Counted from the first letter of the stretch, positions 16,818-34,730 are shown. The stretch: 39,226 nucleotides of DNA from Candidatus Latescibacterota bacterium (GCA_019038625.1 JAHOYU010000042.1:1-39226); one strand, 5' to 3'. Program-made: numbers and translations. The notes: generated by a model from the sequence alone, not told the origin.

Positions 16818-18155
16818 TCAGATCCCCCTGGGACCCCAGGATTCTTTCCGTCGATCCGTGTCGGGGACTCTTTGATCCTCATCTTCCTTATTACCACTGA
16901 AATCAAGATACGATGAGACGGCCAGGATAAATCCGTTTCCCATCGAAGGGAGCATCGTGCCAGATGAGGCCCAGGCGAGATCGAGATTGAACGAGGAGAA
17001 TCTAAACCCCAGACCCAGTCCGAGTGACATCCCATGAAATCCACCGATCGAGATCCCTGCTCTGAGAGGCATGAAACTGATTCTGCTGTATTCGCATCCG
17101 GTCGACAGTTCCGGGTCGTAGTCGGCTCCGGGAGTCGCGCGGAGCCGGAACTTGAGATCCGCTGCAAGAAGAAAGTCTCCTGCCTGGCGGGCAGCCCCGA
17201 GATTTAACTCCGGGACCAGAGTGGATACGAACGATTTCACGTCTCGATCTATTTCACTGGACTGAATGGTAGTCGAGTCGTCGGCCGTTTCGGCACTGAA
17301 CGAGTCGACTGTGAAGATGTACTCGGAGAATTCCGTATCGACATTCCAGTTTATGAAGGACACCAGGTTTCTTACGCCCGCCGAGAATGTCCACTTTTCG
17401 CCGAAGAGTGAGGCGATCCCCACATCGAGTCCCAGTCCGGACCCGCCCCGTGCGGTCCGTATGAGGATCGATCCGTCAGCGTCTATGCCTGACATCGATG
17501 TAGTTGCCGTTGCTTCCGCCCTGCTCACGTTCATATAGGTTATCCCCCGGATATATTTGCAGTTCACTCCGACAGCAAGCTCACCCCAGTCGTATTTTCC
17601 AATATTGTATCCGTATGCGAGATTGAAATCGGCGTGGACGAATGCCTCGCCGTCGGCAAGGTCAGTATCGATCGTCTCGCCCATGCCGTTTCCAAAGAAG
17701 GCAAGGTCGACTACATCTCTGGACAGGCTGCCGGCAGCCGAGGCTTCCACCGTTGTCGCCAGGACCAGCGGACCTCTGGATAACGACAGGGTCGAGGCTG
17801 TGACGTTTCCTCTGAACTGAAGCCCTTCGTCCGGTATCATCGACAGGATATACTGCCGGTCTGATTCGCTGAGATTGGCTCCGTTATACTTTTCATAATC
17901 CGAGATGGAAAAGGTGTTGTTATCGAGAGCAGACCCGATCGCGAAGAGTTGGACTCGCAGCCAGGGCCGGTCCGAAAGGCCGAGGTTTCCAGGGCAGAGA
18001 CCGATCGCGTCGTATCCCCTGGCGACAGCCGTATAGCTGCCGGCCATAGCTATCGACCTTGCGTCACACCATACTCCTGCCTTTATCGAAGGTCCCGGGA
18101 GGCTGGCCATCAACATGGTTGTTATCAGGAACAGTATCGATCCGTTACGTGACAC
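16818..18155 (-). CDS. PorV/DUF5723-like outer-membrane beta-barrel protein
   Basis: The 445-aa protein has a Sec signal peptide (hydrophobic residues about 7-25, cleavage near SIKA-GVW). The mature start, ARSIAMAGSYTAVARGYDAI, is followed by PGNLGL, the typical N-terminus of the PorV/FadL-like or DUF5723 barrels of FCB bacteria. The rest is alternating amphipathic strands with aromatic girdles and Gly turns, as in a 14-stranded barrel. The last 25 residues are charged and non-strand-like. The start is GTG 18155, with GGAAGG 7 nt upstream. It follows the lipoprotein gene by 24 nt on the same strand, so the two are probably co-expressed. Role inferred: outer-membrane transport or secretion accessory. 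Confidence 0.75.
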   Translation of the reverse strand: MSRNGSILFLITTMLMASLPGPSIKAGVWCDARSIAMAGSYTAVARGYDAIGLCPGNLGLSDRPWLRVQLFAIGSALDNNTFSISDYEKYNGANLSESDRQYILSMIPDEGLQFRGNVTASTLSLSRGPLVLATTVEASAAGSLSRDVVDLAFFGNGMGETIDTDLADGEAFVHADFNLAYGYNIGKYDWGELAVGVNCKYIRGITYMNVSRAEATATTSMSGIDADGSILIRTARGGSGLGLDVGIASLFGEKWTFSAGVRNLVSFINWNVDTEFSEYIFTVDSFSAETADDSTTIQSSEIDRDVKSFVSTLVPELNLGAARQAGDFLLAADLKFRLRATPGADYDPELSTGCEYSRISFMPLRAGISIGGFHGMSLGLGLGFRFSSFNLDLAWASSGTMLPSMGNGFILAVSSYLDFSGNKEDEDQRVPDTDRRKESWGPRGI

Positions 18156-18179
18156 AGCGCCGCCTTCCAGTGATCGTCA

Positions 18180-20141
18180 TCATTCTTCTCCTATGGTCAG
18201 GATGACGTCCATATATGCTCTGACCGTGATCCAGTCGGTCTGGATCATTCTTACCGTCTCCCCGGCAGTGCCAGGGAACCATATCGACTGACCGATATAG
18301 ATTCTTTCGTTTTCGAGGATCTGCAGATCGTCATGAGTCAGGTGAAACACATTTTCGCTGGTTCGCGCAGCCGAGACCAGTCCTTCGATCCCGATCTCAC
18401 CGATGGATACCTCAATCGGCCCTATCGTAAGTTCGGGGTCATCAAACAGTGTCAGAGAATCGCTCGACATGAATATCGTCACATACACTTCCAGTGGGAG
18501 ATGATTGATGATCGTTGTCGTGAGAGTGGCTTCTTTCATACGGTCCGTGAGATCGGAGAGGTCTTCAGCTTCGATGTCGGTATGGTTGATCTCCGATTCG
18601 AATTCTGTCTCACCTATGGCAAGTTCAAGAGGCGAGATGATCGATACAGACCCGGATACATAGCTGCCGGACGACACCGTCCCGCTTGAGATCCCGTCAC
18701 CGACCATGGCGTGGCCGGTTATCGTTATATGCCCGGGAATCGGATCGAGCAATGCCTGGATATTACTGTCTGTGATCAATGTCTTTACCGGCGACTCGGG
18801 TGTTCCCGGCCGGACAGTGCCGAAGATGGTCAGTTCGGCCCCGTTATCCGCGCTGAGAAGGAGTTCGATCGTCGCGGGGAACCCGACAGCGCTTACTATA
18901 TCCATCTCAAGAATGGCTCCTGTAAGACTGAAGTTCTCGAATCCATCGGGGATATCTACGACGACATCGGTCTGGCCGATCTCTACTCGTTCAGGTCCAG
19001 TAACACCGGCCATCGAGGAAAGCAGGAGTTCAGAGATGTTGATGTCCACGAGGAAGTTGTCCGTGGAGTCAAAATCGATCTGGCCCTCTCCGCTGGATGG
19101 TATATCGATAGTCAGGGATGCGGTGATCTGTTGCCCCTCTACACCGGCTGAGGGATATAGGACATACTCAGCCAGGCTCCGGGTGATCATCTGCGATTGC
19201 CCGGGGCTCAGCCCTGCAGATATGGACATCGGTGAGCCATCCAGTATCAGCCCGGGCACGGTGACATTAGCGAGGACCACCGTTCCTGTGCCGTTGAATA
19301 TCCCGATCCGAAGTTCTCCCGAGATGATCGATGCGGAGACGATAGCGTCGTCCCCTCCGATATTGATTTCTTCAGAGAAGACCTTTGTCTGACCGGGGAC
19401 AGCCGCTCTGGCCGAGGATACGCTCAAAGTCCCGGGAAAGTACGCTTCCACGAGGAGGCTTTTCCCATTGAGACTTTCAATAGAATCACCTGGTGTATGC
19501 ATGTGAGCATCGAAAGAAAGATCGTTTGTGACAGTCATTCCCGAAAGGTCTATCATTCTCGTTCCAGTTTCGCCTTTGTCGAGTCCACCGGTGAATTCGA
19601 TCGATGCTATCCTGAACCCCGACCCATCGTCGTCAATGTCGAGTATCAGTGTGTCGAGTGGGAGATCCAGTCTGTTGGTCACGCTGATCTCCATCATGCC
19701 GGATTCTATCACCGCTCTTTCTATATCCTGAAATAATGGAAAATCTTTGCCGGCATCCAGCGAAAGGGGGGGTATCAATCCTCCCATACCTATATAGTCA
19801 GCAAGCAGGATCTCCGACGATACTCCATCCGGAACAGAGATCTCGATGGTTCCCAGGACTTCGCTGAAGCTTTCGGAGAATCCCTCCACGGAAAGCCCCG
19901 CGTCTATCGTGACAGGAGAGATCTCCTCGCTGATGGTGAAGGAAATAGCACCCGTAGAATCATAAGCCAGAGCCTCTTCCGATATCCGGTCTATTATCTC
20001 GAGCATGTCATACTCATGATCGACCAGGGGAAGGGTCAACCCTATATCCCAACTGGGAGCTTCGGGGGTTTCGATCGAGCAGGACAACAGGGATAACTGG
20101 CAGATGAGAATAATAACGAGGGCTGAATCCCGATGGCGCAT
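18180..20141 (-). CDS. Large all-beta lipoprotein of unknown function
   Basis: The 653-aa predicted lipoprotein has a short signal peptide with lipobox LSLLSC (Cys21 from the chosen start). ATG 20141 is chosen because AGGAAAGGA lies 8 nt upstream; an in-frame ATG at 20183 lacks an SD. After the lipobox comes PEAPSWDIGLTLPLVDHEYDM, a start I have seen in uncharacterised lipoproteins of FCB bacteria (recollection, not verified). The rest is rich in Ile/Ser/Gly/Asp with repeating strand patterns, few Cys and Lys, and no catalytic motif. This suggests several beta-sandwich domains on the cell surface or in the periplasm. It is read divergently from the giant secreted protein and directly before the barrel gene. 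Function unknown. Confidence 0.75.
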   Translation of the reverse strand: MRHRDSALVIILICQLSLLSCSIETPEAPSWDIGLTLPLVDHEYDMLEIIDRISEEALAYDSTGAISFTISEEISPVTIDAGLSVEGFSESFSEVLGTIEISVPDGVSSEILLADYIGMGGLIPPLSLDAGKDFPLFQDIERAVIESGMMEISVTNRLDLPLDTLILDIDDDGSGFRIASIEFTGGLDKGETGTRMIDLSGMTVTNDLSFDAHMHTPGDSIESLNGKSLLVEAYFPGTLSVSSARAAVPGQTKVFSEEINIGGDDAIVSASIISGELRIGIFNGTGTVVLANVTVPGLILDGSPMSISAGLSPGQSQMITRSLAEYVLYPSAGVEGQQITASLTIDIPSSGEGQIDFDSTDNFLVDINISELLLSSMAGVTGPERVEIGQTDVVVDIPDGFENFSLTGAILEMDIVSAVGFPATIELLLSADNGAELTIFGTVRPGTPESPVKTLITDSNIQALLDPIPGHITITGHAMVGDGISSGTVSSGSYVSGSVSIISPLELAIGETEFESEINHTDIEAEDLSDLTDRMKEATLTTTIINHLPLEVYVTIFMSSDSLTLFDDPELTIGPIEVSIGEIGIEGLVSAARTSENVFHLTHDDLQILENERIYIGQSIWFPGTAGETVRMIQTDWITVRAYMDVILTIGEE

Positions 20142-20555
20142 TCGGTGTGTCCTTTCCTGTAAAGCCGGGCGTCGATGGATCAACGATCCTGCGGCCGATG
20201 ATTTTCAGCCAGATTTTCAGCAGCATCGAGTCTGGTAGCCAGTAATACTATTCGGCAGAAAGTCGACCTGGTTTACAATTATTTATTCCGTTCTGGGATT
20301 ACGTTTATCTGCAGGACCGCTGATTCTCAGACTTACTTATAATTCTCCATAATTCTTTATGTTTCCTCATGATTGTGAATAGTTCTTGCGAATGTCCTTG
20401 TGAAATAATTTACGAGACAGGATTGGTAAAATCATAACTTGAATAATAACAGATAGATAGCTGGCTTTGCCTCGGGAAGGTGGAATCGTTCCGGAGGCGG
20501 CCGATCTGGTAATTGTGTAAATGACAGTAGGATACCTGATCAAGCAGAGCAGAGC
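20142..20555. promoter_or_regulatory. 414-bp divergent regulatory region of the secretion locus
   Basis: This AT-rich gap separates the lipoprotein/barrel pair from the giant protein gene. A consensus TATAAT lies at 20338-20343 on the + strand, without a good -35. Other AT-rich boxes (TAATAA near 20443) are seen. A strong hairpin (20469-20498) lies in the expected leader of the giant gene. No coding region, RNA gene or repeat array was recognised. Confidence 0.5.
20469..20498 (+). other. 10-bp hairpin in the leader of the giant secreted protein gene
   Basis: GCCTCGGGAA (20469-20478) pairs with TTCCGGAGGC (20489-20498) with one internal mismatch and a 10-nt loop. It ends about 57 nt before the first ATG of the giant gene. 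It could stabilise the mRNA or act as a regulatory leader; there is no T run. Confidence 0.45.
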
Positions 20556-23500
20556 ATGAAATTGTTGAAATGCATGGTCGAGCACGGGTTATGTCGCAAA
20601 ATGAGAGAGAGCGGGAAGATCTTTCATTCTCTTTTCAGGATGACAGGTATATTCATACTGTTTTATGTCGTTGCCGCCCTGCCGGCAGGGGCCGCTACGG
20701 ATGACGGCACTATTCCGATACGTATTGACCAGTCAAGGGACTTTCTCTTCGCCCCGGTCACAGATCTGGCTATCCAGTCGATTCAATGTTCTTTTGATAC
20801 GGTGAGAGTGGGCGATACCGGGATTCCTCTGACCGTTCGTCTCCAGAACCGTAGTGATATTCCTATAATTATGGATTATGTCTCGATTAACTTCTCCCTT
20901 TCGAGCGGGGGCGACCGTAATAGCGATTATTTTGTCACAACCCTACCGATAGCCAACGATACTATCTATCCGACAGATATAGTCTCATTTGATTTTCTCA
21001 TCGATGTCCTTCCAGATGCTCTTATTGGAGAGATCGTCAGGATCAGCGCCTTTGCTGTGGGGGAGAGATCCGACAGCGGAGGGACAATCACAGTCGAGAG
21101 CTCGGATACACACAATATCCTCGACGAATTCGAGGCTGTCGCCTGGGACAACGATGACGGAAGTGAAGGCTGGCTGGATCCATGGACCGAGATCGGAGAA
21201 TCTGATGGTCCCGATACCGGATTCGTCTTTATATCATCCACCGAACTTAGAATAGGCTCTGATCTGGTCTTTGATGTCGTCGGAATCGAGAGGGGAGCTG
21301 ACCTTTCCGATATCGATGTTGCTACACTGAAATTCAAGTGGGCGTCAGATCCTCTCAACAAATTCCAGGGTCTGTTTCTGTCACAGATATCCGATGACGG
21401 AGGCGAAAACTGGGTCGATCTGGTTTCTATCGAGGGTGGCGCTTCGATGATAGCGGGTGAGGAAAGTCTCGATATCACCGAATGGGCAGGGGCAGAAACG
21501 AGGATCCGTTTTGTGACGAGCGACCTGTGCCAGGGCTTCATCTATATTGACGAAGTCGAGATAATCTTTGAGAAAGCTTCGGCAAGTTATGCCTGGGTAG
21601 TCCTGAACGAGGGTGGTCTTCAGGCATCGATAGCATTGCTGGATACCCGTTTTACTCCCGACCGTTCTGACGATTCCCTTATCGTGCTTCTGGAGAAGGA
21701 AACGACTTCTCTCGGCATCGTATACAGAGCCAACCAGGGTGTTCCTGTCGCCAGCATACAGTATGAACATGGCAGGGAGTACCGGCTCGTAATGCAGTAC
21801 AGGAACCTGGAGGAATGGGAGTGGGAAGTGAAAGATTCAGAAAGAGGGTATTTCGCCTTCGAAGATATCTCCAGTGGATTTGGACGTGAATCGGAGCCCC
21901 GGTCCGGGCTGAAGGAATTCCTTCTGACAGAGACAAATATCGGTAACGAGGAGGATGACCCTGTCGATTGTGTAATAGGGGCTACAACCAAATCCGATCC
22001 TCCACCGTCATGGGATATCATGAGCGATCCCTGGTCAGATCCCGAAGTCGATGAAGGTAAGGTCGGAGAATTCGGAAGTATCATAGAGGGACTGACTCCG
22101 CCCAGGTGGATCCTTGATTGCAAGGATGGTGGAAAGGACTGGGAAGTCACGGGAAAAGCGGAGGCTGACAGGTCGTATTTCCATGAAATATGGTTCCGGC
22201 CCGATCAGGAATGGGAGCATGGAGACCTTGCCGATATCTATCTCCATTATGACGGTAATTCGCCGGAAAACTCGCTCAATGAATTTCATATGATATTCAG
22301 GATGGTGGACGACGATACACTGGGGCCGGAGATCTCGGATTATTCTCCGGAGACCATTCCGGAATGGAACGATATTTATATCACTACCCACATCTTCGAT
22401 CCAAGCGGAGTCTATGATGACGATACGGACGAAGGAGGGCAGGGAGTATATATCATCTGGGACGATGATGGCAGTCTCCTGGACGGCTACAATGTGATGC
22501 AGATGTTCGCGATAGGAGGAGGGTATTTTCAGACTATCGGTTCTCTGGGATCCTATTCTGAAGGAATTGAGATACTATACAGGGTATATGCGTATGATGA
22601 TGATAGCGATTCCGGGTCAGCCGACCGGAGCCAGTCCGTCAGCGAAGTGCATTCTGTCCAGGTCATTGGATCGAGTCCCGTCTATGAAACAGATTCTTCG
22701 ATCTCACCTGACGAGATATATCCGGATATGCACGTAGACGGTTTTCAGTTGTTGATATCGAATCCCAATGCGGATGAAATAGTCCTGATGCCTGCCGTGT
22801 CTTATCTCACCCTCACCGACGGAGTCCTGGATGTTAACGTGAATCTGGTCAACGAGACGGTATTGAGGCCGGGAGTGAACGATTACACGATAGTCTTCGA
22901 TCAGGCAGACATCCCGGAAGCTTTCAACGCTCCTGATACTGTAGAAGTCGATCTTCATCTTGAGGGGACCATCCAGGGATCATTGTTCTGGAGCCAGGAT
23001 TGGACATTGTCCGAATCGAACCGGATAATTGTCGACGCGCAGACAGTCTTTGTCGAGGCCTATCCGCTTCCTTCTCCCGCTGTTAATCCGGGAGATCGTA
23101 ATGCCGAGATGCTTCGTCTTAAAATAACGAACAAGGGGCTGGCAGATGTCCTGGTCGACAGTCTTGTCGTCGATAACCTTACTACGGGGACATTTACTGT
23201 GCCCGGAAACGATGTAAACTTTGAGACTCTTTATCTTTACAGACAGAACGAATCTATTGTTGCGGATCAGAGTCCTGCTGAAGGCGGAGTAGAAGATCTT
23301 TTGAAAAGCAGGCCTTTTGACGAGGACGATTCGCTGGCCGCGACTGCGGTCTTCTCCGATGGAAAGGCCGTATTCAGGTTGTCACAAGGGAACTATGTGT
23401 CGATCGGAGAAGAAGTCTATTACTATGTCACGGCGGATATCGATTCGTTTCTAGCCTGTGATGGAGATCTTCTCGATATTGCGGTGATGTCGACAGATTC

Positions 23501-26500
23501 GATCTTTCTTGCCGGTAACGGTATTGTCGAATCCGACCAGTCCATACTGAACTCCGAGGGAATTTCTGTCGTAGATGGTTTTGTGAACACACAGGCCGCG
23601 GTACTCGATGTCCTGCCGGACACTCTCTGGTCGGGTGTTTCGGAACAGCTGATCTTTGCTATTGAACTACCTTCCAACGGGTATGCTCCTGACCTGCTGA
23701 CAGAGCTGGCCCTTCACAATTATGGAAGTGAAGCGGCAAACGCTATGATCTCGGATCTAATGCTATGGGTGGATGATGGAGACTATATCTTCTCATCCGA
23801 TGAAGATGAACAGGTTGGGGAACTGGTATTCACGGGAGGCGTCTTCGTGATATCGGGGATCTCGGTGCCGGTTGTAGGGTCCAGATTGTTATTTGTCACA
23901 TCGTCATTCGGTGGGGATTTTTTGAGTGAACTCATGGTCCGGATCGGGTTGCCAGTCAATGGAGCGACCTATGTGTCAGGAAACGAAGGGCCGATCAACA
24001 TGGAGATTCTTTCTCCAGTATCACAGGTCCTGCTGAAAAAAGAGTTTCTGGCCGTGTCGATCATGTCGAGGGCTGGTCCCGAATATTTCTATAATCCCGG
24101 TGACCGCGCGGTCGAACTTACGGGGTTGTCCATGGAAAACAGTACATTGTCGTCACTCATTCTGGAGTCGCTGTCTCTTCGTGGAAACACCGATATGTTC
24201 GAATGTGTGCCGGGACAGGAAATAGACCTCTATCTGGATGATGGAGATATGGTGCTCGACACAAGCGATGATACCTGGTTGATCTCGTCCACGATGTTGT
24301 CGGGTGTCTGTGAATTTTCCGGGTTGGATACCGGGATAGAGCCAGGAGATCAGATCGTTCTTTTCGCTGCAATCGATGTCGATTCGTTTCTTACGCCTGA
24401 TGGGGATACTTTGTCGATTCGCCTCGAATCAGCCGGGGATATAGTAATATCTTCGGTCGCTGAAAGTGATTTCTCGGTCGAGGGTGAATTCCCTCTCGCA
24501 CCGGAAATCAGCCCTGTCTCTGACGGGATGATGTCGTATCAGCTTGGAGTATATTCAGGATCTGACAGCACCATGACCGGACGGTTAAAAGATATTCTGG
24601 CAATGGAGATCGTAGTGCCCGGAAACGGTTGCCGGGACGATATTCTGGAATCAGTCAGAGTCATAAATATTGGTACCGCACGCGAGAACCATATAGAGAC
24701 CTTGTGGTTGTGGAGAGACAACGGCGACGAAAAGTTCTCGGCGATCGACGATATCAAGGCTGGGTCGATGATTACGGATGATTTCAGGGAATTCATCGTG
24801 GACGGGTTATCGGAACCTGTCTCCGGTGATGGGAACAGTACATTCTTTATCACTGTCGATCTGAATGAAGGATTTACCTCCGGGGCAGACATATGGCTGC
24901 AGATACCGGTGAACGGAATCTCGATGTCATCGGGCAATGACGGCCCGATAGATGAGAGCATGACGACCGGGCAGGGAGTAGTCATACCGGTCCCCGACAG
25001 GGTGACGGTATATTCGAGCCTTCTCGGGAACAAACGTGTCCGGTGCGGTGACCGGAACATCCTGAATATGGTTCTCGGAGTCTATAACAGTTATTCGGAT
25101 GACAAGATGCTTAAATCGTTGATACTTCTCAAGGAAGGAACGTCGTTTATTGACGAGATCGAGCTGGTCCAGGCCTGGGCGGACGCCAACGGTAATGGCC
25201 TCTTTGACGTGGAGAACGATCTCCTTCTCGAAACGGTCGATCCTGAAGGAGCAATAATAATATTCGATGGCCTAGACCTGGCTCTTGGTTCGTTCAAGAA
25301 CAGCCTGCTCTTTATTACCTACGATCTTCCCGGACAGGGTGTCCGCGATTCGGTCTCGATCGACTTCAGTATTTCCGACAGGGCTTTCCTCGAATTCAAT
25401 GATGATGCGATAAAGGTGGAGGGTGTGTTTCCTCTCGAATCGGCAGGCACGGATTACACTGATGGAATGAAAGTATCGCAGATATCGATACCCTCTCTGA
25501 CTGAGATAATGGTTTCTCCTGATGATGAGGATGTCTTCGCCTATTCTCTTACAATCCCATGTAACGGGTCGGAGAATGACATATTGAGAAACATTTCGTT
25601 CGAGAACGAAGGTTCCGCTCTTGTCGGAATGGACGTAGGTTATCTGCGGTTATGGAGAGAAACCGGTGGTTCAAGCCCGGGTTTCGACGAGGGCGAGGAG
25701 GAACTGATCACTTACCTGTCCTGGAATGGCAGCAGTTGGAGCTCCTTCTCAGGACTGGATGAATATATAGGCTGCGACGGGCTCTCTCTCCATGTGACGG
25801 TGGATATCACAGCCACCGCTTCAGATGGAAGAATATTGATGCTCGATGTGCCGGCAAATGGAATAGAGGTAGCTTCGGGCAACGATGGACCTATAGACGG
25901 GTCGCTCGGTCAGCCTGTACGGGTCGTCATTACGACCGATCCTCTTGTGGCTGGATTCGAAAGCCTTTTGACTGTGACTTCTGGTCAGGAATTCGATCTG
26001 GGATTGAGAGTGGCCAATGTTGCCGACTCTACCATTGTGGCCATCAGGCCATCGGGGTTCGACTGGTCCGGGACAGGATCGATCATAGTTGAATCAGGTC
26101 CTACCCCTGGATTTATCGATCTTTCCGGACAGGAGGACAGCATGTTCACCTGGTCGATGATTGCCGGAACCCCCGGTTTCATCATCTTCGAGGGGATGGT
26201 GGAAGGGGAGTACGATACCGAAAGTATGATCAGCCGTTCAGACACACTGTTTATCCAGGGTGTACCCGGCGGATTCAATATGACTCTGGACGATCTGGCT
26301 CCGGTCAGTCTTAACAGGGGGACGACGGATGTCGGGATGATCGAGTTTACGATGATATACAGCGGCTCATGCCTGCAATGCGCACCCATCGATCTGGGAT
26401 CGGTCGAACTGATCTTTAAAGACGCGGCAGGTCAGCCACTGGGAGTGAGTGATATAGCTACCGTTGTCTATCTCCGGGATGAAGTAATGCTGATCGCGGA

Positions 26501-28532
26501 TATCAATACGACAGATATCGAGGACTCGGCGGTCACGCTTGTTCCCTTCGATCGGGTGATGATCGAACCGGGAGGGATGAGGACTTTCAGGGTGTATATC
26601 GATGTCGGGCCCGAAACGAGCGGAAATGATTTCAGGATATCCCTTGGCTCGGCTTCGGCATTTGATCTGATCGATCATAATACGGGAATAGCTGTGGAGA
26701 TCGGTGGAATAGAGTTCCCATGGACGACGAACGCGGTGGATATCAGAGAGCCCGCACTGGAATTATCAGTCGGTATGGATGGTATCGCGCCGGAAACGAT
26801 CAACAGGGGCCAGGAGGATGTCCGGGTGTTCAGCCTGGTCCTGACAAACGTGGGGAGCAGTTCGGGAGCGGATATCAGTATCTCCTCGATATGTTTCGAG
26901 GTGGAAGATATATTCGGCAGTTCAACGGAAGCATCCGGGATATTCTCGGAATTCCATCTTCAGGACGGACCGGGTTATCGTTACTGCACGGTGTCTGCCT
27001 TTGGAGCTTCCCAGGATATAGAGTGTGTATTTCAGCCTGAGATCGTCATCTCTCCAGGGATGCCGCTTGTCCTCGATGGATATGTCGATCTTGTGTCTCA
27101 TCCTGCCCCTGAGGGGTTCAGGCTGGTACTCCAGGATTCACTATGTATAGGCGCAAGGGACGCCAATTCCGGCCAGACGGTGACGGTACGAAGTGATCAG
27201 GCTGGAGGATATGATTTTCCGATGGATTCGGGAGGAACAATGATCCTGAACCCGCTGACCGGGCTTTCGGTGTCCGGTACGTCTATGTTGCCGGATGCTG
27301 TCACAGCATCGTCCGTAGATGTAGACGCTCTTAATGTAGTCATTCGACATACAGGCAGCCAGGAAGAGTCGAGTGCCTTGCTGAGATCGCTGTCAATAAG
27401 GCTGCTTGACAGTTCAGGTTCAGGAATCCCATGGAATTCCACGATCGAGGGGTTGAGATCGACGGCGGGAGACAGTGTCGCAGGAGAGGTCTATCCGGCC
27501 GCTGGAGACACTTCTTCATACATGACACTGGTTTTTCCAGGCGATCTGCAAGTATCTCCGGGAGATTCGATCGATATCGATATCTCGGTCGATCTGGAAG
27601 GTGAATCCCTGCCCCCTGACTTTCAGATGCAGGTAGCACAGAGTGGGATCGAGGCATATGACGCTACTTCAATGGAAAGGTTTATTTCCGTTCAGGGCGA
27701 ATTTCCTCTTACAAGCGGAATAGCTGAAATAACGCTGCCAGCAGACGGCATCACGTTCGGGGCGGGATCGATCATGCCGTCAAATGTAGTGCCTGGCGAG
27801 AAGGCCGGGTTGTTCAAACTCAGATTCTCAAGAGACTTGTCTTCGGAAGGTTCTCATGTGATCGTATCAGGATTCGATATCGAGTTCGAAGACAGATACG
27901 GAATACCGATAGATCCTTCAGCAATAATAGAAGACATCATTATAGAGAACGAAGGAACTGATGTCGGATTGACGATGGAGATCGTCTCGGGTACTACCAG
28001 GATCAGTCTTGTCGATCCGGTCATGGTGGAGAAGGGACAGTCCATTGTCCTTGACATATCAGCAGGAATATCAGAATCAACATCGATCGAGGCTCTGCGG
28101 GCCGAGATCCCGTCGGTATCGAGCATCGTATGTGTGGATGGTGTATCGGATGAGTCGGTGGCTGTATCGTTGGAAGAAGGCTTCGCATTACCCTTCATAT
28201 CGGGTATGGCCGCTGTCATCGCCGGGGAGACGGAAGCTTCGTTCTCGAATTATCCGAACCCTTTCATTGCAAGCCAGGAACAGACAAGGATAACGTTTTT
28301 TCTTCCATCAGAATCCGAAGTCTCTCTCGAGGTCTATACGATAACGGGGAAACTGGTTAAAAAGATAATTGACAACGAGAGCATGATGTCCGGGCTCCAT
28401 CAGGATATATGGTGGGATGGCAGGAATGGTCGGGGCGAAAAAGTATTGAACGGTGTCTATTACCTGGTCCTGAAAACCGGAGCGGGTGGGAGTGAGAAAG
28501 TATTCAGGAGAAAGGCAGCACTGGTACGCTGA
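20556..28532 (+). CDS. Giant repetitive secreted surface protein with type IX-style C-terminal sorting domain
   Basis: This 2658-aa protein has a hydrophobic signal segment at about residues 30-48 ending in PAGAATDDG. The N-region is long, so ATG 20601 may be the true start; neither has a clear SD. Residues 65-170 form a CARDB-like strand domain and 190-345 a jelly-roll-like domain (WDNDDGSEGW). Three copies of a 316-336-aa module (about 830-1785) each end in SGN(D/E)GPI (1141, 1459, 1774) and contain Asp-rich loops, one EF-hand or dockerin-like (DANGNGLFD, 1543-1551). Four copies of a roughly 163-aa module follow (about 1908-2555). The end has NYPNPF (2565-2570), then a FlgD-like domain with WDGRNGRGEKVLNGVYY, as in type IX secretion cargo. 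The protein is probably exported to the surface; its ligand or function is unknown. Confidence 0.85.
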   Translation: MKLLKCMVEHGLCRKMRESGKIFHSLFRMTGIFILFYVVAALPAGAATDDGTIPIRIDQSRDFLFAPVTDLAIQSIQCSFDTVRVGDTGIPLTVRLQNRSDIPIIMDYVSINFSLSSGGDRNSDYFVTTLPIANDTIYPTDIVSFDFLIDVLPDALIGEIVRISAFAVGERSDSGGTITVESSDTHNILDEFEAVAWDNDDGSEGWLDPWTEIGESDGPDTGFVFISSTELRIGSDLVFDVVGIERGADLSDIDVATLKFKWASDPLNKFQGLFLSQISDDGGENWVDLVSIEGGASMIAGEESLDITEWAGAETRIRFVTSDLCQGFIYIDEVEIIFEKASASYAWVVLNEGGLQASIALLDTRFTPDRSDDSLIVLLEKETTSLGIVYRANQGVPVASIQYEHGREYRLVMQYRNLEEWEWEVKDSERGYFAFEDISSGFGRESEPRSGLKEFLLTETNIGNEEDDPVDCVIGATTKSDPPPSWDIMSDPWSDPEVDEGKVGEFGSIIEGLTPPRWILDCKDGGKDWEVTGKAEADRSYFHEIWFRPDQEWEHGDLADIYLHYDGNSPENSLNEFHMIFRMVDDDTLGPEISDYSPETIPEWNDIYITTHIFDPSGVYDDDTDEGGQGVYIIWDDDGSLLDGYNVMQMFAIGGGYFQTIGSLGSYSEGIEILYRVYAYDDDSDSGSADRSQSVSEVHSVQVIGSSPVYETDSSISPDEIYPDMHVDGFQLLISNPNADEIVLMPAVSYLTLTDGVLDVNVNLVNETVLRPGVNDYTIVFDQADIPEAFNAPDTVEVDLHLEGTIQGSLFWSQDWTLSESNRIIVDAQTVFVEAYPLPSPAVNPGDRNAEMLRLKITNKGLADVLVDSLVVDNLTTGTFTVPGNDVNFETLYLYRQNESIVADQSPAEGGVEDLLKSRPFDEDDSLAATAVFSDGKAVFRLSQGNYVSIGEEVYYYVTADIDSFLACDGDLLDIAVMSTDSIFLAGNGIVESDQSILNSEGISVVDGFVNTQAAVLDVLPDTLWSGVSEQLIFAIELPSNGYAPDLLTELALHNYGSEAANAMISDLMLWVDDGDYIFSSDEDEQVGELVFTGGVFVISGISVPVVGSRLLFVTSSFGGDFLSELMVRIGLPVNGATYVSGNEGPINMEILSPVSQVLLKKEFLAVSIMSRAGPEYFYNPGDRAVELTGLSMENSTLSSLILESLSLRGNTDMFECVPGQEIDLYLDDGDMVLDTSDDTWLISSTMLSGVCEFSGLDTGIEPGDQIVLFAAIDVDSFLTPDGDTLSIRLESAGDIVISSVAESDFSVEGEFPLAPEISPVSDGMMSYQLGVYSGSDSTMTGRLKDILAMEIVVPGNGCRDDILESVRVINIGTARENHIETLWLWRDNGDEKFSAIDDIKAGSMITDDFREFIVDGLSEPVSGDGNSTFFITVDLNEGFTSGADIWLQIPVNGISMSSGNDGPIDESMTTGQGVVIPVPDRVTVYSSLLGNKRVRCGDRNILNMVLGVYNSYSDDKMLKSLILLKEGTSFIDEIELVQAWADANGNGLFDVENDLLLETVDPEGAIIIFDGLDLALGSFKNSLLFITYDLPGQGVRDSVSIDFSISDRAFLEFNDDAIKVEGVFPLESAGTDYTDGMKVSQISIPSLTEIMVSPDDEDVFAYSLTIPCNGSENDILRNISFENEGSALVGMDVGYLRLWRETGGSSPGFDEGEEELITYLSWNGSSWSSFSGLDEYIGCDGLSLHVTVDITATASDGRILMLDVPANGIEVASGNDGPIDGSLGQPVRVVITTDPLVAGFESLLTVTSGQEFDLGLRVANVADSTIVAIRPSGFDWSGTGSIIVESGPTPGFIDLSGQEDSMFTWSMIAGTPGFIIFEGMVEGEYDTESMISRSDTLFIQGVPGGFNMTLDDLAPVSLNRGTTDVGMIEFTMIYSGSCLQCAPIDLGSVELIFKDAAGQPLGVSDIATVVYLRDEVMLIADINTTDIEDSAVTLVPFDRVMIEPGGMRTFRVYIDVGPETSGNDFRISLGSASAFDLIDHNTGIAVEIGGIEFPWTTNAVDIREPALELSVGMDGIAPETINRGQEDVRVFSLVLTNVGSSSGADISISSICFEVEDIFGSSTEASGIFSEFHLQDGPGYRYCTVSAFGASQDIECVFQPEIVISPGMPLVLDGYVDLVSHPAPEGFRLVLQDSLCIGARDANSGQTVTVRSDQAGGYDFPMDSGGTMILNPLTGLSVSGTSMLPDAVTASSVDVDALNVVIRHTGSQEESSALLRSLSIRLLDSSGSGIPWNSTIEGLRSTAGDSVAGEVYPAAGDTSSYMTLVFPGDLQVSPGDSIDIDISVDLEGESLPPDFQMQVAQSGIEAYDATSMERFISVQGEFPLTSGIAEITLPADGITFGAGSIMPSNVVPGEKAGLFKLRFSRDLSSEGSHVIVSGFDIEFEDRYGIPIDPSAIIEDIIIENEGTDVGLTMEIVSGTTRISLVDPVMVEKGQSIVLDISAGISESTSIEALRAEIPSVSSIVCVDGVSDESVAVSLEEGFALPFISGMAAVIAGETEASFSNYPNPFIASQEQTRITFFLPSESEVSLEVYTITGKLVKKIIDNESMMSGLHQDIWWDGRNGRGEKVLNGVYYLVLKTGAGGSEKVFRRKAALVR
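23040..25910 (+). repeat. Three tandem 316-336-aa protein modules (repeat family 1)
   Basis: Within the giant gene, each unit starts with a GDR motif (residues 846, 1182 and 1498 region) and ends with SGNEGPI or SGNDGPI (1141, 1459, 1774). Spacing is 336 and then 316 for GDR, and 318 and then 315 for the end motif. Each unit is bipartite: both halves have an acidic loop of the form D-D-G-D or R-D-N-G-D followed by a GL/GIS strand. Linkers share VEG(E/V)FPL. Divergence is high at the DNA level, so these are old duplications. Confidence 0.7.
26270..28220 (+). repeat. Four tandem protein modules of about 163 aa (repeat family 2)
   Basis: Equivalent positions APVSLNRGTTDVG, APETINRGQEDV, MLPDAVTASSVDV and MPSNVVPGEKAG fall near residues 1915, 2077, 2243 and 2406, a period of 162-166. 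Each unit continues with a long strand, a segment like I.FEVEDIFG or IEFEDRYGIPI, then a V-I-S-P-G or I-E-P-G turn and a D-(V/L) strand. The pattern suggests one beta-sandwich domain per unit, lying just before the sorting tail. Confidence 0.65.
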
Positions 28533-30538
28533 TGAACCGAATATTCAGAATAATCATCCTTTCTCTGGTAGCGATGGCCGCAATAGCGCTACCGCGTGTA
28601 CTGGTCGCTGAAGATGGGACGGGTGGGACTGTAAGTCCATTTGCCCTTGGAGCAGGAGGAAGGAACACGGCACTCGGCGGAGCCTCAGCTGCCATCTGGG
28701 GAGGGTCGTATTCCCTCGTCTGGAACCCGGCGGGGCTCGTTTCCGTGGAGAGGGGCGAACTGGCTCTGTTCCATACTCCCCTGTTCGACGGCGCATGTTC
28801 ATATTCAACGGCCCTGGTATCATGGCCACTTCTCGATGCTGGTGTGATATCGGCTGGAATAATGCATCTCAAAATAGGTGATATCGAAAGACGTGACTCT
28901 GACAATATGTTGGAAAGCGGTGATCTGTCGAACAGGCAGACCAGGTACATCCTTGGTTTCGGCAGGACCATTCACGGAGGACTTTCGGCAGGGATCAGTC
29001 TTAAGCTGGACAGGTATGCCCAGGGTGAATACAGCGCCAACGGATTCGGGATGGACGTGGGCCTTGGAATACGGAGAGAAATCAAATCGCCACTGGTCGA
29101 TGGTATGGCCGCGGGAATCAATTTTTTCAATATTGTGGAGCCTGTCTATACGATCGTCAGTGAGGAATCGGGCGATCCTTCAGGGGCCCGGGGCGGGATC
29201 GCCATGTGGCGTTCGATGCCGGGAAGTCTGGACGATCGGTTTCTCTTTACCTCCGATCTGGTAAAATCGAGATACAGCGAGACCGGGTTGCATGCGGGAG
29301 TCGAATACAGTATAAGCGGAATGTTTGCGGTACGGGCAGGGTACGACGCGGGGAACGTCACGCTTGGTGCCGGGTTCCGGGTTCATACAATCGAGGTGGA
29401 CTATGCTTTCAGGGATTCCGATCTCGAGAATTACCACCTGTTCTCGATATTGTATGGATACGGCGAGACGAGCAGCCAGAAGCTTGCCAAACGCAGAATA
29501 GCAAGAGATGAGGAAATTCAGAAAAAACTCGTTTTTGAGACGGACAGGTATGAGACAGATCTGATCTCATCTTCAATGGAAAGCGGTAGAAGGGCACTTG
29601 AAAATGGCCATTATAACAAGGCCACGGGATATTTCGAGGCAGTCCTGCTCTGGGACCCCACCAATACCGAGGCAAGGGATTGTAGAACCAGGGCTGATGC
29701 TCTCACCCATATTAAACGTGCGGACTCGCTTTTTGTCGGTCAGATGTACTCGGAAGCATTGTTCGAATACAGACTTGGCAGTCAGCATTTCGATCACGAA
29801 GAGATCGACAGTCGGATCGAAGCCTGCGAAAAATCGATAGGGGAAGCCGAGAACAGCAGGGCTATTCTTGACAGGATGATCTCACATTCACTTGAGCTCT
29901 ATACAAGTCGGCAGTGGGCTGATGCTTCACGGGCGTTCGAAGAGATCCTGGTGATCGACCCCGGTAACAGTATAGCGAATCAGTACCGTGAAAAATCAAT
30001 ACTCAGGAACAGGGAGTATTACGATTCACTTATCAGGAGAGTCGAGCAGGCAGTTTCCCGAATGCATTACGAAGAGGCCGCAGAGCTTGTTCACACGGGG
30101 CTGGAGAATTTCCCCGGGGACAATATCCTGATCTCGCGATTATCCGATATCGAACGATTGAAGAGAAGAGCCGGGGATAAAGTCCCTGCAGGGGCTGAAG
30201 TGGCCACACTGAAGCCCGCATTGTCTTCAGCGATGATCGAAGGCCTGAGGCCGGACTACGAAAAGGGAGTAGCCTCCTTTACCGGCGGGCAGTACGAGAA
30301 GGCTATCGATTCCTGGGAAAAAGTCTGGAAGGTGTGGAAGGGCTTCGAGAAGGTAGAGGAATATCTTGTCAAGGCGTACCAGTTCAGGGGCATGGATCTA
30401 TATACCGATCACAGCTATGAAGAAGCGCTTGAAGTATGGCAGAAGATCCTTGTGATAGATCCCGGGAATGAAAAGGCTGCGAGGTATATCAGGAGGACCA
30501 GGGAAGAGATGGGCCTTCTTGAAAGAACGAGAGGATGA
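28532..30538 (+). CDS. PorV-like outer-membrane barrel fused to C-terminal TPR repeats
   Basis: The 668-aa protein has a signal peptide (cleavage near VLVA-ED). Residues about 33-325 form a PorV/UPF0164-like barrel, with the characteristic N-terminus SPFALGAGGRNTALGGASA and WNPAGL. From about residue 345 to the end are five or six TPR-like helical pairs (NGHYNKATGYFEAVLLWDP, ADASRAFEEILVIDPGN, YEEALEVWQKILVIDPGN). PorV is the outer-membrane shuttle of type IX secretion; a barrel carrying its own TPR region is a less usual arrangement. The ATG overlaps the stop of the giant gene (TGATG), indicating translational coupling and a likely partnership with that protein. Whether the TPRs face the periplasm is inferred. 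Confidence 0.8.
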   Translation: MNRIFRIIILSLVAMAAIALPRVLVAEDGTGGTVSPFALGAGGRNTALGGASAAIWGGSYSLVWNPAGLVSVERGELALFHTPLFDGACSYSTALVSWPLLDAGVISAGIMHLKIGDIERRDSDNMLESGDLSNRQTRYILGFGRTIHGGLSAGISLKLDRYAQGEYSANGFGMDVGLGIRREIKSPLVDGMAAGINFFNIVEPVYTIVSEESGDPSGARGGIAMWRSMPGSLDDRFLFTSDLVKSRYSETGLHAGVEYSISGMFAVRAGYDAGNVTLGAGFRVHTIEVDYAFRDSDLENYHLFSILYGYGETSSQKLAKRRIARDEEIQKKLVFETDRYETDLISSSMESGRRALENGHYNKATGYFEAVLLWDPTNTEARDCRTRADALTHIKRADSLFVGQMYSEALFEYRLGSQHFDHEEIDSRIEACEKSIGEAENSRAILDRMISHSLELYTSRQWADASRAFEEILVIDPGNSIANQYREKSILRNREYYDSLIRRVEQAVSRMHYEEAAELVHTGLENFPGDNILISRLSDIERLKRRAGDKVPAGAEVATLKPALSSAMIEGLRPDYEKGVASFTGGQYEKAIDSWEKVWKVWKGFEKVEEYLVKAYQFRGMDLYTDHSYEEALEVWQKILVIDPGNEKAARYIRRTREEMGLLERTRG

Positions 30539-30554
30539 CAGTCAGCGGTGTGAT

Positions 30555-32129
30555 ATGAAAGCAATAAACCTGAAATTTCAGATCACTCTATTCGTGCTCC
30601 TTCTCATTGCGGGACTTGTCACAGCTTTTTCGCTGACATCCGCTCGTGTTCAGCGGACGATCCTCCTTGAGGAGGTAAGACAGAAAGTGGTACTGCAGGG
30701 AAGGAACCTGGCACTGAACTACTCCAAACCCCTGCTCCATAAAGATCCCGAATTTGAGCTTCATCCACATATCCGGAAAGTCCTCTCGGGCGACAGAAAT
30801 ATCAGGTCGGTCGTGGTCGTGGACAGGGAAGGGAAAATCAAGGGGCATCGTGACATGAAGATGATAGACGTTCAGTTCAGGGATGAGACTGGATTCGCGA
30901 CGGTCGGCGACATGTCAGGACTTGCTCCCGATGAATCTCTGAAGATCCGTGATGATATTCTGCTGGTGTCGACTCCGATAACGGATCAGGAGGAGACTAT
31001 AGGTACGGTGTTTATCGAGTATTCGACTGAAGGGATGATGCAGACTCTGGCAGAAGGAAGAAAACGGATTATGAGAATAGGACTGATTGCGCTGGGGGCT
31101 GGTGCTTTGATGTCCCTGCTTCTGGCAATTCTTATAGCCAGGCCAGTCAATCGCCTGACCAGGGGAGCCGAGTTGATCGGCCAGGGACGTCTGGATACAA
31201 GGATAAGAGTAAAGTCGGTCCGGGAGATGAATGTGCTGGCAGATACGTTCAACAGGATGGCTTCCAGTCTCGAGGAAAACCGTGATGTCATGAGAGAGAA
31301 GGAGCGTCTCGACAAGGAGCTTGAGATCGCGAGATCGATTCAGCAGACTCTTCTTCCCTCTGATATACCCGAGCCCGAAAGATATGATATCGACGCATAT
31401 TACAACTCCGCGGAACTTGTGGGGGGCGATTATTACGATATCATCCCATTGGAAAATAACCGGATCATGTTCGTAGTCGGCGATGTCGCCGGCAAGGGAG
31501 TGCCGGGTCTGGTAGTGATGGCGATGGTAAGGATGATGGTCAGGGACCTTGCCCAGCGGGGTGAAAACCCTGCCAGGCTGCTCAGGCATCTGAATACTCT
31601 TTTGTTGAGAGATGTTCGTAATAATCTTTTCCTGACCATGTTCTGTGGTGTCCTTGATCTCGGATCGAACGGTTTCTTCTGGGCCAGCGCGGCTCATATG
31701 CCGCTGGTCTACTTCAGGGGACGGGACGGGAGTGTGCGGATGCTGGGGACGAAAGCCAAACCTATGGGGATCTTTCCGGATGAAGTATTCAATAAAGGTC
31801 TCAAGGAATATCAATTGACGTTTGAGCCTGGGGACCTGCTCCTGCAGTACACAGACGGATTAAACGAGATGCGCGACCGGAAAGGCGACGAATTCGGCCT
31901 GGAAAAGGTCGAGGAGATAGTAAAAAGTGTGGCGTCCAGGGGGGCAACGGATCTGCTTGCGACCCTGAAAGAGAGCCTTGATGAATTCAGGGGCGAAGTG
32001 CCCCAGAGCGACGACCTGACGCTATTGGCATTGCGGATGCGACAGTCCGTTGAAACAGGTGTCTCGTCGGACAGGAATGAGGATCACGGGAAAGTCAGCA
32101 CCGGAATCCATGACCGGAGTAGTGTATAG
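30555..32129 (+). CDS. Membrane HAMP-SpoIIE (RsbU-like) serine phosphatase
   Basis: The 524-aa protein is counted from ATG 30555, which lies 16 nt after the PorV-TPR gene; a longer frame from 30468 would overlap that gene. TM1 spans about residues 7-27, followed by an extracytoplasmic domain with a VVVDREGKIKGH strand typical of Cache/PAS-like sensors. TM2 spans about 172-195, HAMP about 196-250, then a short coiled linker. The PP2C/SpoIIE domain (258-515) has the metal-binding motifs GGDYYD (290-295), VGDVAGKG, YTDGLNE and SDDLTLL. It should dephosphorylate a STAS-domain serine in response to an external signal; the next gene encodes such a domain. Confidence 0.92.
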   Translation: MKAINLKFQITLFVLLLIAGLVTAFSLTSARVQRTILLEEVRQKVVLQGRNLALNYSKPLLHKDPEFELHPHIRKVLSGDRNIRSVVVVDREGKIKGHRDMKMIDVQFRDETGFATVGDMSGLAPDESLKIRDDILLVSTPITDQEETIGTVFIEYSTEGMMQTLAEGRKRIMRIGLIALGAGALMSLLLAILIARPVNRLTRGAELIGQGRLDTRIRVKSVREMNVLADTFNRMASSLEENRDVMREKERLDKELEIARSIQQTLLPSDIPEPERYDIDAYYNSAELVGGDYYDIIPLENNRIMFVVGDVAGKGVPGLVVMAMVRMMVRDLAQRGENPARLLRHLNTLLLRDVRNNLFLTMFCGVLDLGSNGFFWASAAHMPLVYFRGRDGSVRMLGTKAKPMGIFPDEVFNKGLKEYQLTFEPGDLLLQYTDGLNEMRDRKGDEFGLEKVEEIVKSVASRGATDLLATLKESLDEFRGEVPQSDDLTLLALRMRQSVETGVSSDRNEDHGKVSTGIHDRSSV

Positions 32130-32131
32130 CG

Positions 32132-33214
32132 ATGATACTCGAAAAAATCGATTTAAAATCATCGGAAATAACCGTCAGTTGCGGTGCCGGGTCATACCTC
32201 GATTCCCTGGGGAGGGTCACAGGTGTGATCCTCCTGTCGATCGAATCAGGATTTGATTCGCTCCGCCTTGTCAAATCAGGACGATGCGATGATTCGATCA
32301 AGCCCGTTCTCGATCTGATCCTGTCGAATAATCCATTCGTCAATATAGTTGAGTCCGAAAAGAATGAATCAGACCGGATCGACAGTCTGAAGATATGTGA
32401 TCATCCACAGATCTCGGTCATTGGAGAAGGCTCCGGACATCTGTACAGGATCAGAGCCAGCGTGACGGTCGAAGGGACTAATTTTGCCTCCAGGACCGCC
32501 GGCATCATCACCGGGATCCTCGGTTTTCCCGGATTCATGTCGTTCGGAATGAGATTAGCCTCTTATGAACTTCTCATGAATATATCCGAGCACGGACACG
32601 GTCCCGGGAAAAACAGGTGGGTCGATCTTATACTGGAAAAGAGAGAGGACAGCCTTTTTATGACGATTATCGATGATGGTCCCATGTTCGATCCCACAAT
32701 AGGCATTGATTTCGATCTGAAAAAATATCTCGGAAGCGGAAAGAACAGAGGCCTTGGGTTGATAATGTTAAAGAATATGAATCAGAAGATGACTTATGCG
32801 AGAGAGAACGGGAAGAACATGATTGTCATCAACAGCATGGTGGCAATCGATATTCCAAAGGGAAAGGAGAACGGAATGGCAGCTTTGAAAATTGATGAGG
32901 GAATACCCGGAGCGGACGGAATAAGCGAGATCATGATTAGGGGGGAACTGGATACGAAGGGAGCACTCAGACTCGAGGAATTGATGAACGATCTCATAAG
33001 TAGGAAAATCTACAAGACCGTTCTCAATTTCAGGGATGTCAGCTTCGTTTCAAGTGCGGGTGTCGGTATGCTTCTGGGACTGGTCTCGTCACTGAGGAGA
33101 GAGGGCGGCGAAGTATATCTCTCCGAGCTGACGAACAAGGTAGAATCCGTATTCAAATTACTTAACCTGGACGACTATTTCAAGGTCATCACGGGACAGA
33201 GCGGGAAACTTTAG
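32132..33214 (+). CDS. Anti-sigma-factor kinase (RsbW-like) fused to an anti-sigma antagonist STAS domain (RsbV-like)
   Basis: In this 360-aa protein, residues about 110-245 form an RsbW/SpoIIAB-type HATPase. The N-box is ASYELLMNISEHGHG (143-157), G1 is IIDDGP (179-184), and G2 is RGLGLIMLKNM. Residues 250-355 form a STAS domain with FVSSAGVGMLL, where Ser308 is the expected phospho-acceptor. The first 100 residues match nothing I recognise. RsbW kinases normally phosphorylate a separate RsbV protein; here kinase and substrate are in one chain. It lies 2 nt after the SpoIIE phosphatase, its probable antagonist. No sigma factor is adjacent, so the output target is unknown. Confidence 0.85.
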   Translation: MILEKIDLKSSEITVSCGAGSYLDSLGRVTGVILLSIESGFDSLRLVKSGRCDDSIKPVLDLILSNNPFVNIVESEKNESDRIDSLKICDHPQISVIGEGSGHLYRIRASVTVEGTNFASRTAGIITGILGFPGFMSFGMRLASYELLMNISEHGHGPGKNRWVDLILEKREDSLFMTIIDDGPMFDPTIGIDFDLKKYLGSGKNRGLGLIMLKNMNQKMTYARENGKNMIVINSMVAIDIPKGKENGMAALKIDEGIPGADGISEIMIRGELDTKGALRLEELMNDLISRKIYKTVLNFRDVSFVSSAGVGMLLGLVSSLRREGGEVYLSELTNKVESVFKLLNLDDYFKVITGQSGKL

Positions 33215-33262
33215 GCCGATGATATTGTCATCGAGATATTGATCCCAGCGTCAGGACAGATC

Positions 33263-34729
33263 ATGGAAGTGATGAGTAAATCAACTGAGACAGACAGAGC
33301 CACAGACGTGCCCTCGATGCTCGAACAGGAGCTCGAGAGGAAAAACATGGCTTTCGAGGCTCTTTTCAGGCTGATGGAGAGGATCGGCACGACACTCGAT
33401 CTGGAGACCATAATACGTCTGTTTCTGATGACGCTGGCCGGGCAGCTGAGCCTCGATCAGATCGCTTTTTATCTGGCATCCTCGAAAGAAAATCTTTTCA
33501 GGGTTTATTACTCTCTGGGGATCAGTACGGGAGAGTTGCCTCCTGCAATAGCAAGATCCTCATATATCGTCCGGACTCTTGGGAAAAAGCTCGACCTTGT
33601 AGAGATCGGTGAACCGTCTGATCTGGCGGCGTGCGCCGACCCTTCAGACGATGAGGCATTGTTCTCGATGAACGGATTCAGTTACGCATTTCCACTTATC
33701 GGAAAAACGGGTGTGCAGGGTATAATCCTCATGAGCCGGAAGATCGACGGAAGCGGGTTTACAGAGTTCAACAGAGAGATCCTTCATGTTCTGACGAGAT
33801 CGGCAGCCATGGCTGTCGGCAACGCGATGCTGTATAACGAAGTCCTGGTGTCGAATATGGAAATGGAAGATTTCGCAAGGGTAAAGAAGGAATTTCTCTC
33901 CCACACGTCGCACGAGCTCAGGACCCCCCTGACAATCCTTAAGAGTTCTCTGTGGTCTATCGAAGAGAAAAAAGGTAATGACGGTGTACTGATGGAACTC
34001 GCCTGCAAGGCGGTTACTCGTCTTAGCAGCATGGTAGACCAACTGTTGTCACTGAACGATGTCGGGATTAACGCGTCATCGCTCAACCTTGTCCGCACAA
34101 ATATCCTGCAATTGCTGGAATCGTCTTTTGTGGAAAGGATCTCCGAGATCAGTGAGATGGGGGTCACCTTCAAACTGGACAAGATGAACACTCCTGATGA
34201 CCTGTTTATAGACGCTACGAAGATGAGGATTGTCTTTAAAAGCATCATTGATAACGCGGTCAGTTCAGTAGAGAGTGGTGGTAGTATCTACCTCAGTGTT
34301 TCCACAAGGACTCTCTCCCCTGATGAACTGGAGGGTGTGGAGATCATCTGCAGTGAATACCGCAAGGAATATCCCGTCGATTCTTCTGCGCCAGATTCAC
34401 ATGAATCTGAATATTCAGAAGATATATCGATCGGAGTTGGAAAAAGAAACGGAAATCCTGTCGATGAGTGGGTGGTGATCAGGGTGAGGGATGACGGTGT
34501 GGGTATACCGGAGGAGGAGATAAGGACTCTGAGTGAACCATTCATGAGAGCGTCGAACTCGAAGATGGCCGATGTGAAAGGGTTGGGGCTCGGGCTCTCG
34601 GTCGCATCGAAGATCATCTACTCGCATGGTGGTAGATTCTACTGTAGCAGCGAAAAAGGACGAGGAGCTGAATTCTCGGTCTGGCTTCCGGTCTCCTATA
34701 AAAAAGATAAGAATCAAGACGGAGGTTAA
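33263..34729 (+). CDS. GAF-domain sensor histidine kinase
   Basis: The 488-aa soluble kinase is counted from ATG 33263, with AGGA 6 nt upstream; a TTG at 33239 and an ATG at 33272 are alternatives. The N-terminal coiled stretch leads to a GAF domain (about 30-190). HisKA has SHTSHELRTPL with phospho-His217, and HATPase has IDNAVSSVE (N-box), RDDGVGIP (G1) and GLGLGLSVASKI (G2). An unusual acidic insert of about 40 residues (361-401) lies inside the ATPase domain before G1. No transmembrane segment and no adjacent response regulator are seen. It lies 48 nt after the RsbW-RsbV fusion and 1 nt before the next gene, indicating one operon. Confidence 0.92.
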   Translation: MEVMSKSTETDRATDVPSMLEQELERKNMAFEALFRLMERIGTTLDLETIIRLFLMTLAGQLSLDQIAFYLASSKENLFRVYYSLGISTGELPPAIARSSYIVRTLGKKLDLVEIGEPSDLAACADPSDDEALFSMNGFSYAFPLIGKTGVQGIILMSRKIDGSGFTEFNREILHVLTRSAAMAVGNAMLYNEVLVSNMEMEDFARVKKEFLSHTSHELRTPLTILKSSLWSIEEKKGNDGVLMELACKAVTRLSSMVDQLLSLNDVGINASSLNLVRTNILQLLESSFVERISEISEMGVTFKLDKMNTPDDLFIDATKMRIVFKSIIDNAVSSVESGGSIYLSVSTRTLSPDELEGVEIICSEYRKEYPVDSSAPDSHESEYSEDISIGVGKRNGNPVDEWVVIRVRDDGVGIPEEEIRTLSEPFMRASNSKMADVKGLGLGLSVASKIIYSHGGRFYCSSEKGRGAEFSVWLPVSYKKDKNQDGG

Positions 34730-34730
34730 G

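Follow-up and report, generated by a model that had tools for sequence, protein, structure and literature searches.

Type IX secretion is familiar as an export route that also underlies gliding, and to our knowledge no sensory system has so far been known to use it as its outer half. PorV/PorP-type carriers, which are 14-stranded barrels of the FadL family, are proposed to collect cargo from SprA (PMC9143113), and specific pairs of cargo and carrier have been established for type B cargo (PMC12618676). The role of the carrier can extend beyond export. SprF and PorP retain their cargo at the cell surface, giving a carrier-anchored adhesin (PMC9143113), and the periplasmic tail of SprF is bonded to the gliding track (PMC12635249). 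At the inner membrane, the PP2C receptor SiaA controls biofilm through a phosphorylated antagonist and c-di-GMP (PMC7647112).

The window analyzed here comprises 39,226 nucleotides and corresponds to contig C42 in a draft genome of 3.8 Mb from Candidatus Krumholzibacteriota. The first-pass annotation of this DNA had read four genes between 16818 and 30538 (two barrels, a lipoprotein and a giant cargo protein) as one surface-export set around a single divergent promoter region. All four open reading frames were confirmed at the coordinates that it gave, and the divergent gap of 414 bp is present (20142-20555); the giant may in fact start 45-84 nt further in. The set itself did not survive comparison with relatives, from which it follows that the four genes are two independent, conserved gene sets placed head to head. 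Module A (16818-20183, minus strand) holds the lipoprotein and a DUF5723 barrel, and module B (20556-34729, plus strand) runs from the giant through a histidine kinase. In a genome of the same genus (G001) the locus is collinear, with acyltransferase, giant, carrier, receptor and the genes that follow, but module A is absent and the giant comes directly after the acyltransferase gene. In a genome of the same family (G009) modules A and B are on separate contigs, C20 and C17, respectively. Because module A is absent or elsewhere in relatives, the divergent arrangement in the window is a local juxtaposition. The boundary at 30538 was also drawn too early, given that the conserved operon continues through 30555-34729, and a SpoIIE receptor and partner-switching genes had been overlooked.

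A single dedicated export system built from all four genes could appeal to their adjacency here and to the distant relationship between DUF5723 and PorV barrels. Genes found apart in relatives had been named in advance as the observation that would speak against it, and this is what was seen for the module A half: missing from the same-genus locus, carried by a different contig in G009, and apart from module B in the other loci examined. The four-gene export locus was rejected on this separateness across genome comparisons, and we give it hardly any credence.

The barrel of module A (16818-18155, minus strand) is a DUF5723 outer-membrane barrel and a distant relative of the PorV carriers. It matches PF18990 (65.6 bits, 8.6e-18; cut-off 26.8) and reaches just 17.9 bits against the PorV_fam model NF033709, under the cut-off of 90, so that it is not a PorV or PorQ carrier by that model. 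Of the two PorV/DUF5723-like barrels in the first-pass annotation, one is of PorV type (28532-30538, discussed below) and the other is this DUF5723 barrel. The orphan all-beta lipoprotein next to it (18180-20183, minus strand) was correctly singled out as an unknown lipoprotein of 653 aa: it has that length from the likely start, the ATG at 20141, it has no family in Pfam or NCBIfam, its N-terminus is hydrophobic, and all 36 aligned homologues keep Cys35, as expected of a lipobox Cys. The structure model is an all-beta chain (pLDDT 85.9) with no strong solved relative, the best high-probability match being 4h3w at a TM-score of 0.44 by target length, and the sequence has no match in the PDB. 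Homologues occur in 41 of 118 genomes and, by profile, in 67 of 387.

The DUF5723 gene adjoins the lipoprotein gene in all 36 loci of one set and in 16 of 17 further loci, mostly outside the host's class, for 52 of 53 other loci. The 36 other loci examined for the genes of module B contain neither a carrier-TPR gene nor a receptor gene, and their sole strong barrel match is a plain PorV of 332 aa. In another family, the neighbors of module A are genes for glycine cleavage, lipoate ligase, a dipeptide ABC transporter and a TonB receptor. No functional link to type IX secretion was found among these housekeeping genes, and the reading in which module A assists type IX export was rejected. On this comparative evidence module A is a stand-alone pair of outer-membrane lipoprotein and DUF5723 barrel. 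The pair is also a cross-phylum two-gene unit (16818-20183; L029-L064 and L207-L223), with a lipoprotein that has no curated family.

Module B begins with a giant type IX cargo of 2658 aa (20556-28532, plus strand). The type IX-style tail first claimed for this protein was borne out, given that its C-terminus (residues 2562-2658; 28239-28529) matches the type A sorting domain TIGR04183 at 24.2 bits, barely over the cut-off of 23; the match to Pfam PF18962, at 13.4 bits, is under its cut-off of 27. The type B sorting domain TIGR04131 gave no NCBIfam match on the giant at E up to 1, and a tail of type B or CHU_C is unsupported in the Pfam and NCBIfam searches. Hydropathy alone, without a dedicated predictor, places a hydrophobic signal segment at residues 29-47, followed by AAT. 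Self-comparison and modeling define a region of Ig-like repeats at residues of about 839-2540 (23070-28175), and the internal repeat units by self-comparison are about 155-168 aa long. The last 672 residues were modeled with a pLDDT of 90.8 as beta-sandwich domains in a row, with the sorting domain last. Foldseek places the model closest to solved structures of Ig-like domains from the adhesin PrgB, of integrins and of a biofilm-associated protein. Global TM-scores are low, as they should be for flexible rods, so these matches mean an Ig-like rod rather than homology. The giant is thus predicted from its model to be a long rod of Ig-like domains, and it is probably an adhesin. Pfam finds no enzyme domain in it, and the homologue in the same genus is 79% identical.

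The next gene (28532-30538, plus strand), the start of which overlaps the stop codon of the giant by 1 nt, encodes a barrel of the PorV carrier type (residues about 30-310) with a TPR arm joined to it in the same chain (about 340-664). It scores 98.6 bits against PorV_fam NF033709, over the cut-off of 90, and matches TPRs too; its profile matches PorV in the solved SprA-PorV translocon structure 6h3i. The match to the PorE model NF052230 is below threshold (E 0.088, 11 bits). The nearest named relative, 84% identical in the carrier, is a metagenome-assembled genome of Candidatus Krumholzibacteriia. Of 43 giant homologues for which the contig includes the 3' end, 42 are followed by a carrier-TPR gene 3-144 nt downstream, by match ends, and a stop/start overlap between the two genes, of 4 nt, is common. 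The co-occurrence of four genes that was sought in relatives therefore reduces to giant and carrier, with module A never beside the giant in the other loci. Likewise, the picture of a dedicated cargo with its outer-membrane partners stands for the carrier alone, since lipoprotein and DUF5723 barrel make up a pair of their own. The gene order of giant and carrier supports 28532-30538 as the giant's dedicated carrier.

The carrier is followed by an inner-membrane receptor (30468-32129, plus strand), with a likely start at the ATG at 30555, where homologues also begin. It has two transmembrane segments, a HAMP domain (PF00672) and a SpoIIE PP2C domain (PF07228) with intact PP2C motifs. Homologues carry a periplasmic sensor of the sCache type, the sensor domain of the window receptor itself is under the Pfam sCache threshold, and the receptor profile matches DcuS in the sensor region. 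The best NCBIfam match is SiaA (NF038263) at 75 bits, which is far under the cut-off of 700, so the receptor is not a SiaA equivalog. Profile searches recovered 76 full-length carrier-TPR genes, of which two inside the host's class and two outside are at contig ends. The receptor directly follows the carrier-TPR gene in 55 of 55 testable copies inside the class and in 11 of 17 outside, the split by class being made from the list of loci. The counted loci come from several families of the class and from families outside it, but the counts are not independent events because many of the genomes are related. As a control, the loci of 20 PorV carriers without a TPR arm were taken from the same or related genomes; none has the receptor (0/20), and most of these carriers also come after a tail-bearing gene. 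These controls do not support the notion that linkage to the receptor is a by-product of any PorV neighborhood. Gene comparisons thus show that cargo, carrier and receptor form a conserved unit. Outside the class, carrier-TPR genes have no adjoining receptor at L169, L174, L175, L182, L183 and L186; those at L182 and L183 are preceded by a protein of 373-376 aa with an end unlike that of type IX cargo.

The output domain of the receptor varies. Among the 35 genes that come next in type-1 loci, 34 encode HAMP, 23 SpoIIE (PP2C), 11 HD-GYP and 21 sCache_3_2, and the member without HAMP is most likely L151, a gene truncated at a contig end. In the carrier tree the HD-GYP form falls within a PP2C clade with two changes as the minimum, and a single origin of this form is possible.

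Two further genes complete the module. The first (32132-33214, plus strand) fuses a HATPase of the SpoIIAB type (PF13581) to a STAS domain of the SpoIIAA type (PF01740), and the second (33239-34729, plus strand) encodes a soluble histidine kinase with HisKA and HATPase domains (PF00512 and PF02518). Both are collinear in seven relatives (G001, G009, G011, G007, G010, G036 and G033). The STAS motif FVSSAGVG retains its Ser, the HATPase G1 box is intact, and the N box reads ELLMNISEHG. The partner-switching gene set is therefore complete, with a PP2C phosphatase, a HATPase kinase and a STAS antagonist with a phosphorylatable Ser, and from these motifs 32132-33214 is predicted to encode a partner-switching protein that undergoes a phosphorylation cycle. 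An open reading frame of 220 aa (34626-35288, plus strand), for which NCBIfam gave no match, overlaps the histidine kinase frame at the latter's 3' end; it is kept in the same-genus locus (89% identity), and none was seen after the module in the other families examined.

A second, paralogous type of module is found in the same genome on contig C128 (L098, 3-17629). In this type the gene after the carrier encodes a large HATPase-HAMP-SpoIIE-HTH-STAS fusion in 15 of 15 cases, with a recognized cache domain in 11. The second type is the better conserved (L098, and also L099, L108, L144 and L154-L162). Its giant has 3300-3666 aa, its carrier-TPR protein has a PorP/SprF match (PF11751), and its receptor combines HATPase, cache, HAMP, SpoIIE, HTH and three STAS domains on one polypeptide. 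Kinase, phosphatase and antagonists on a single chain look unusual. The receptor gene is followed by one for a ParA/MinD-type ATPase and then, in L099, by TPR and STAS genes. In a third arrangement (L187, L198, L204 and L205), a tail-bearing protein is accompanied by a PorV carrier of 427-472 aa without the arm and by a separate downstream gene of 653-1055 aa, to which the TPR part of the carrier-TPR profile gives a match in L198, L204 and L205. The receptor is absent from these four loci.

Part of the type IX machinery is encoded in the genome. Type IX tails give 82 matches, PorU scores 572 bits (cut-off 420), and SprA/Sov is over its cut-off, with matches in all 78 genomes searched, including every Krumholzibacteriota genome among them. 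The first-pass annotation had proposed a check for porK/L/M/N and sov, with a genome lacking core type IX components as a point against it. The result is divided: SprA/Sov is present, as is PorU, but GldL, GldM and GldN are undetected in the class. GldM was found in no genome of the host's class, whereas two other genomes in the same search exceeded 360 bits; GldL (0/30 genomes) and GldN (0/78 genomes) were sought in searches without a positive control. With translocon and sortase present and GldL/M/N undetected, the known motor is not recognizable, and the class may export by type IX with a very divergent or unfamiliar motor. For the same reason, export by a complete type IX system is inferred only.

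From the observed gene order, domains, co-conservation and intact motifs, and from the translocon and sortase in the genome, a mechanism can be proposed. SprF and PorP suggest by analogy that the giant is displayed by the carrier encoded next to it and that the TPR arm of this carrier works in the periplasm. With its signal peptide, the giant would cross the outer membrane through the SprA/Sov translocon, be collected by its own PorV-type carrier, and stay on the surface as an Ig-like rod, presumably anchored there. Both ends of PorV-type barrels are periplasmic. The C-terminal TPR arm of the carrier would lie in the periplasm and might touch the periplasmic sensor domain of the receptor; given the strict link between arm and receptor genes, co-conservation suggests the receptor as the partner of the arm. 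Loading of the giant, contact with it or force on it could then alter the receptor, if the signal runs inward. The SpoIIE phosphatase would dephosphorylate the neighboring STAS protein and the HATPase kinase would oppose it, such that the partner switch might adjust gene expression or c-di-GMP to a life on surfaces. In those relatives whose version of the receptor has an HD-GYP c-di-GMP phosphodiesterase, the receptor would act on c-di-GMP directly. In short, module B would be a trans-envelope surface-signaling operon in which an adhesin or sensor acts through the TPR arm of its carrier on a receptor, and through that on a partner switch or c-di-GMP, a reading to which we assign slightly better than an even chance.

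Operon membership alone can reflect co-regulation, and six carrier-TPR genes outside the class lack an adjoining receptor; both points count against this reading, as do the sensor domain of the window receptor under the sCache threshold, the narrow margin of the tail match and the undetected motor proteins. Control might instead run from the inside out. The receptor would then sense a periplasmic solute or envelope stress and regulate synthesis or export of the giant, with the TPR arm as a scaffold to the cell wall or translocon, as PorE is for PorP. The match to DcuS in the sensor region, in a family of the sCache type, fits this alternative, and sCache-type sensors usually bind small molecules. 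An operon is expected from plain co-regulation as well, and there is precedent for the scaffold in PorE, through which PorP and its cargo are attached to the cell wall (PMC9143113). Inside-out control leaves unexplained, however, why the receptor accompanies carriers that bear a TPR arm, while the other pairs of cargo and carrier in the same genomes lack it, and we consider it unlikely, if a serious contender. The receptor could also report carrier occupancy or export load to tune type IX expression, with the giant as ordinary structural or enzymatic cargo. In line with this, the CTD protein PorA of Porphyromonas gingivalis reportedly affects the PorXY-SigP signaling of type IX secretion (PMC7712824). 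However, each giant has its own receptor and genomes hold several paralogous modules, which fits cargo-specific sensing better, and the giant has no enzyme domain in Pfam, such that feedback on secretion status appears distinctly improbable.

If the arm of the carrier does drive the receptor, a single dedicated operon would let bacteria pass a signal from an exported giant protein over both membranes, and its PP2C and HD-GYP forms would be two wirings of the same surface sensor. Sensing by way of a protein exported to the surface may thus occur in phyla that are poorly known. More tentatively, and with less than an even chance in our estimate, several poorly cultured phyla would share an undescribed, widespread class of trans-envelope receptor in which a giant is held by a type IX carrier and the TPR arm of that carrier gates an inner-membrane receptor, with interchangeable PP2C or HD-GYP outputs, for sensing surface contact. 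The module also offers a handle on type IX export in phyla that have SprA and PorU but no recognizable motor. A literature search, with most subscription papers and all bioRxiv preprints outside its scope, returned no paper that pairs SpoIIE with type IX secretion, PorV with partner switching, or Krumholzibacteriota with type IX secretion. Each component, as identified by its matches, is known; the combination of cargo, carrier and receptor is absent from the literature searched, which is no proof of absence.

Among the described systems closest to module B, SprB-SprF of Flavobacterium johnsoniae likewise pairs a giant, repeat-built protein that ends in a type IX domain with a carrier gene directly downstream; the giant is on the surface and the periplasmic end of the carrier has a task beyond export, as is proposed for module B. 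Module B differs in its type A rather than type B sorting domain, in a PorV-type carrier with a long TPR arm, in the receptor gene that comes next, and in that GldL/M/N are undetected. The PorP-PorE-PG1035 complex of Porphyromonas gingivalis unites cargo, barrel and periplasmic TPR module, a combination that module B encodes as well; in module B the TPR is fused to the barrel, the PorE match is below threshold, and the neighbor is a receptor instead of a wall-binding domain. LapA-LapD is a lead rather than a test: a giant adhesin is there controlled, with a link to c-di-GMP, through an inner-membrane receptor that has a periplasmic sensor and HAMP, much as proposed for module B. That system uses type I secretion and the LapG protease, whereas module B has a type IX carrier with a TPR arm and a PP2C or HD-GYP output. 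With SiaABCD and partner switching by SpoIIE/SpoIIAB/SpoIIAA, module B shares an inner-membrane HAMP-PP2C receptor, a kinase and a STAS antagonist, but here kinase and STAS are fused and the whole is tied to a type IX cargo and its carrier.
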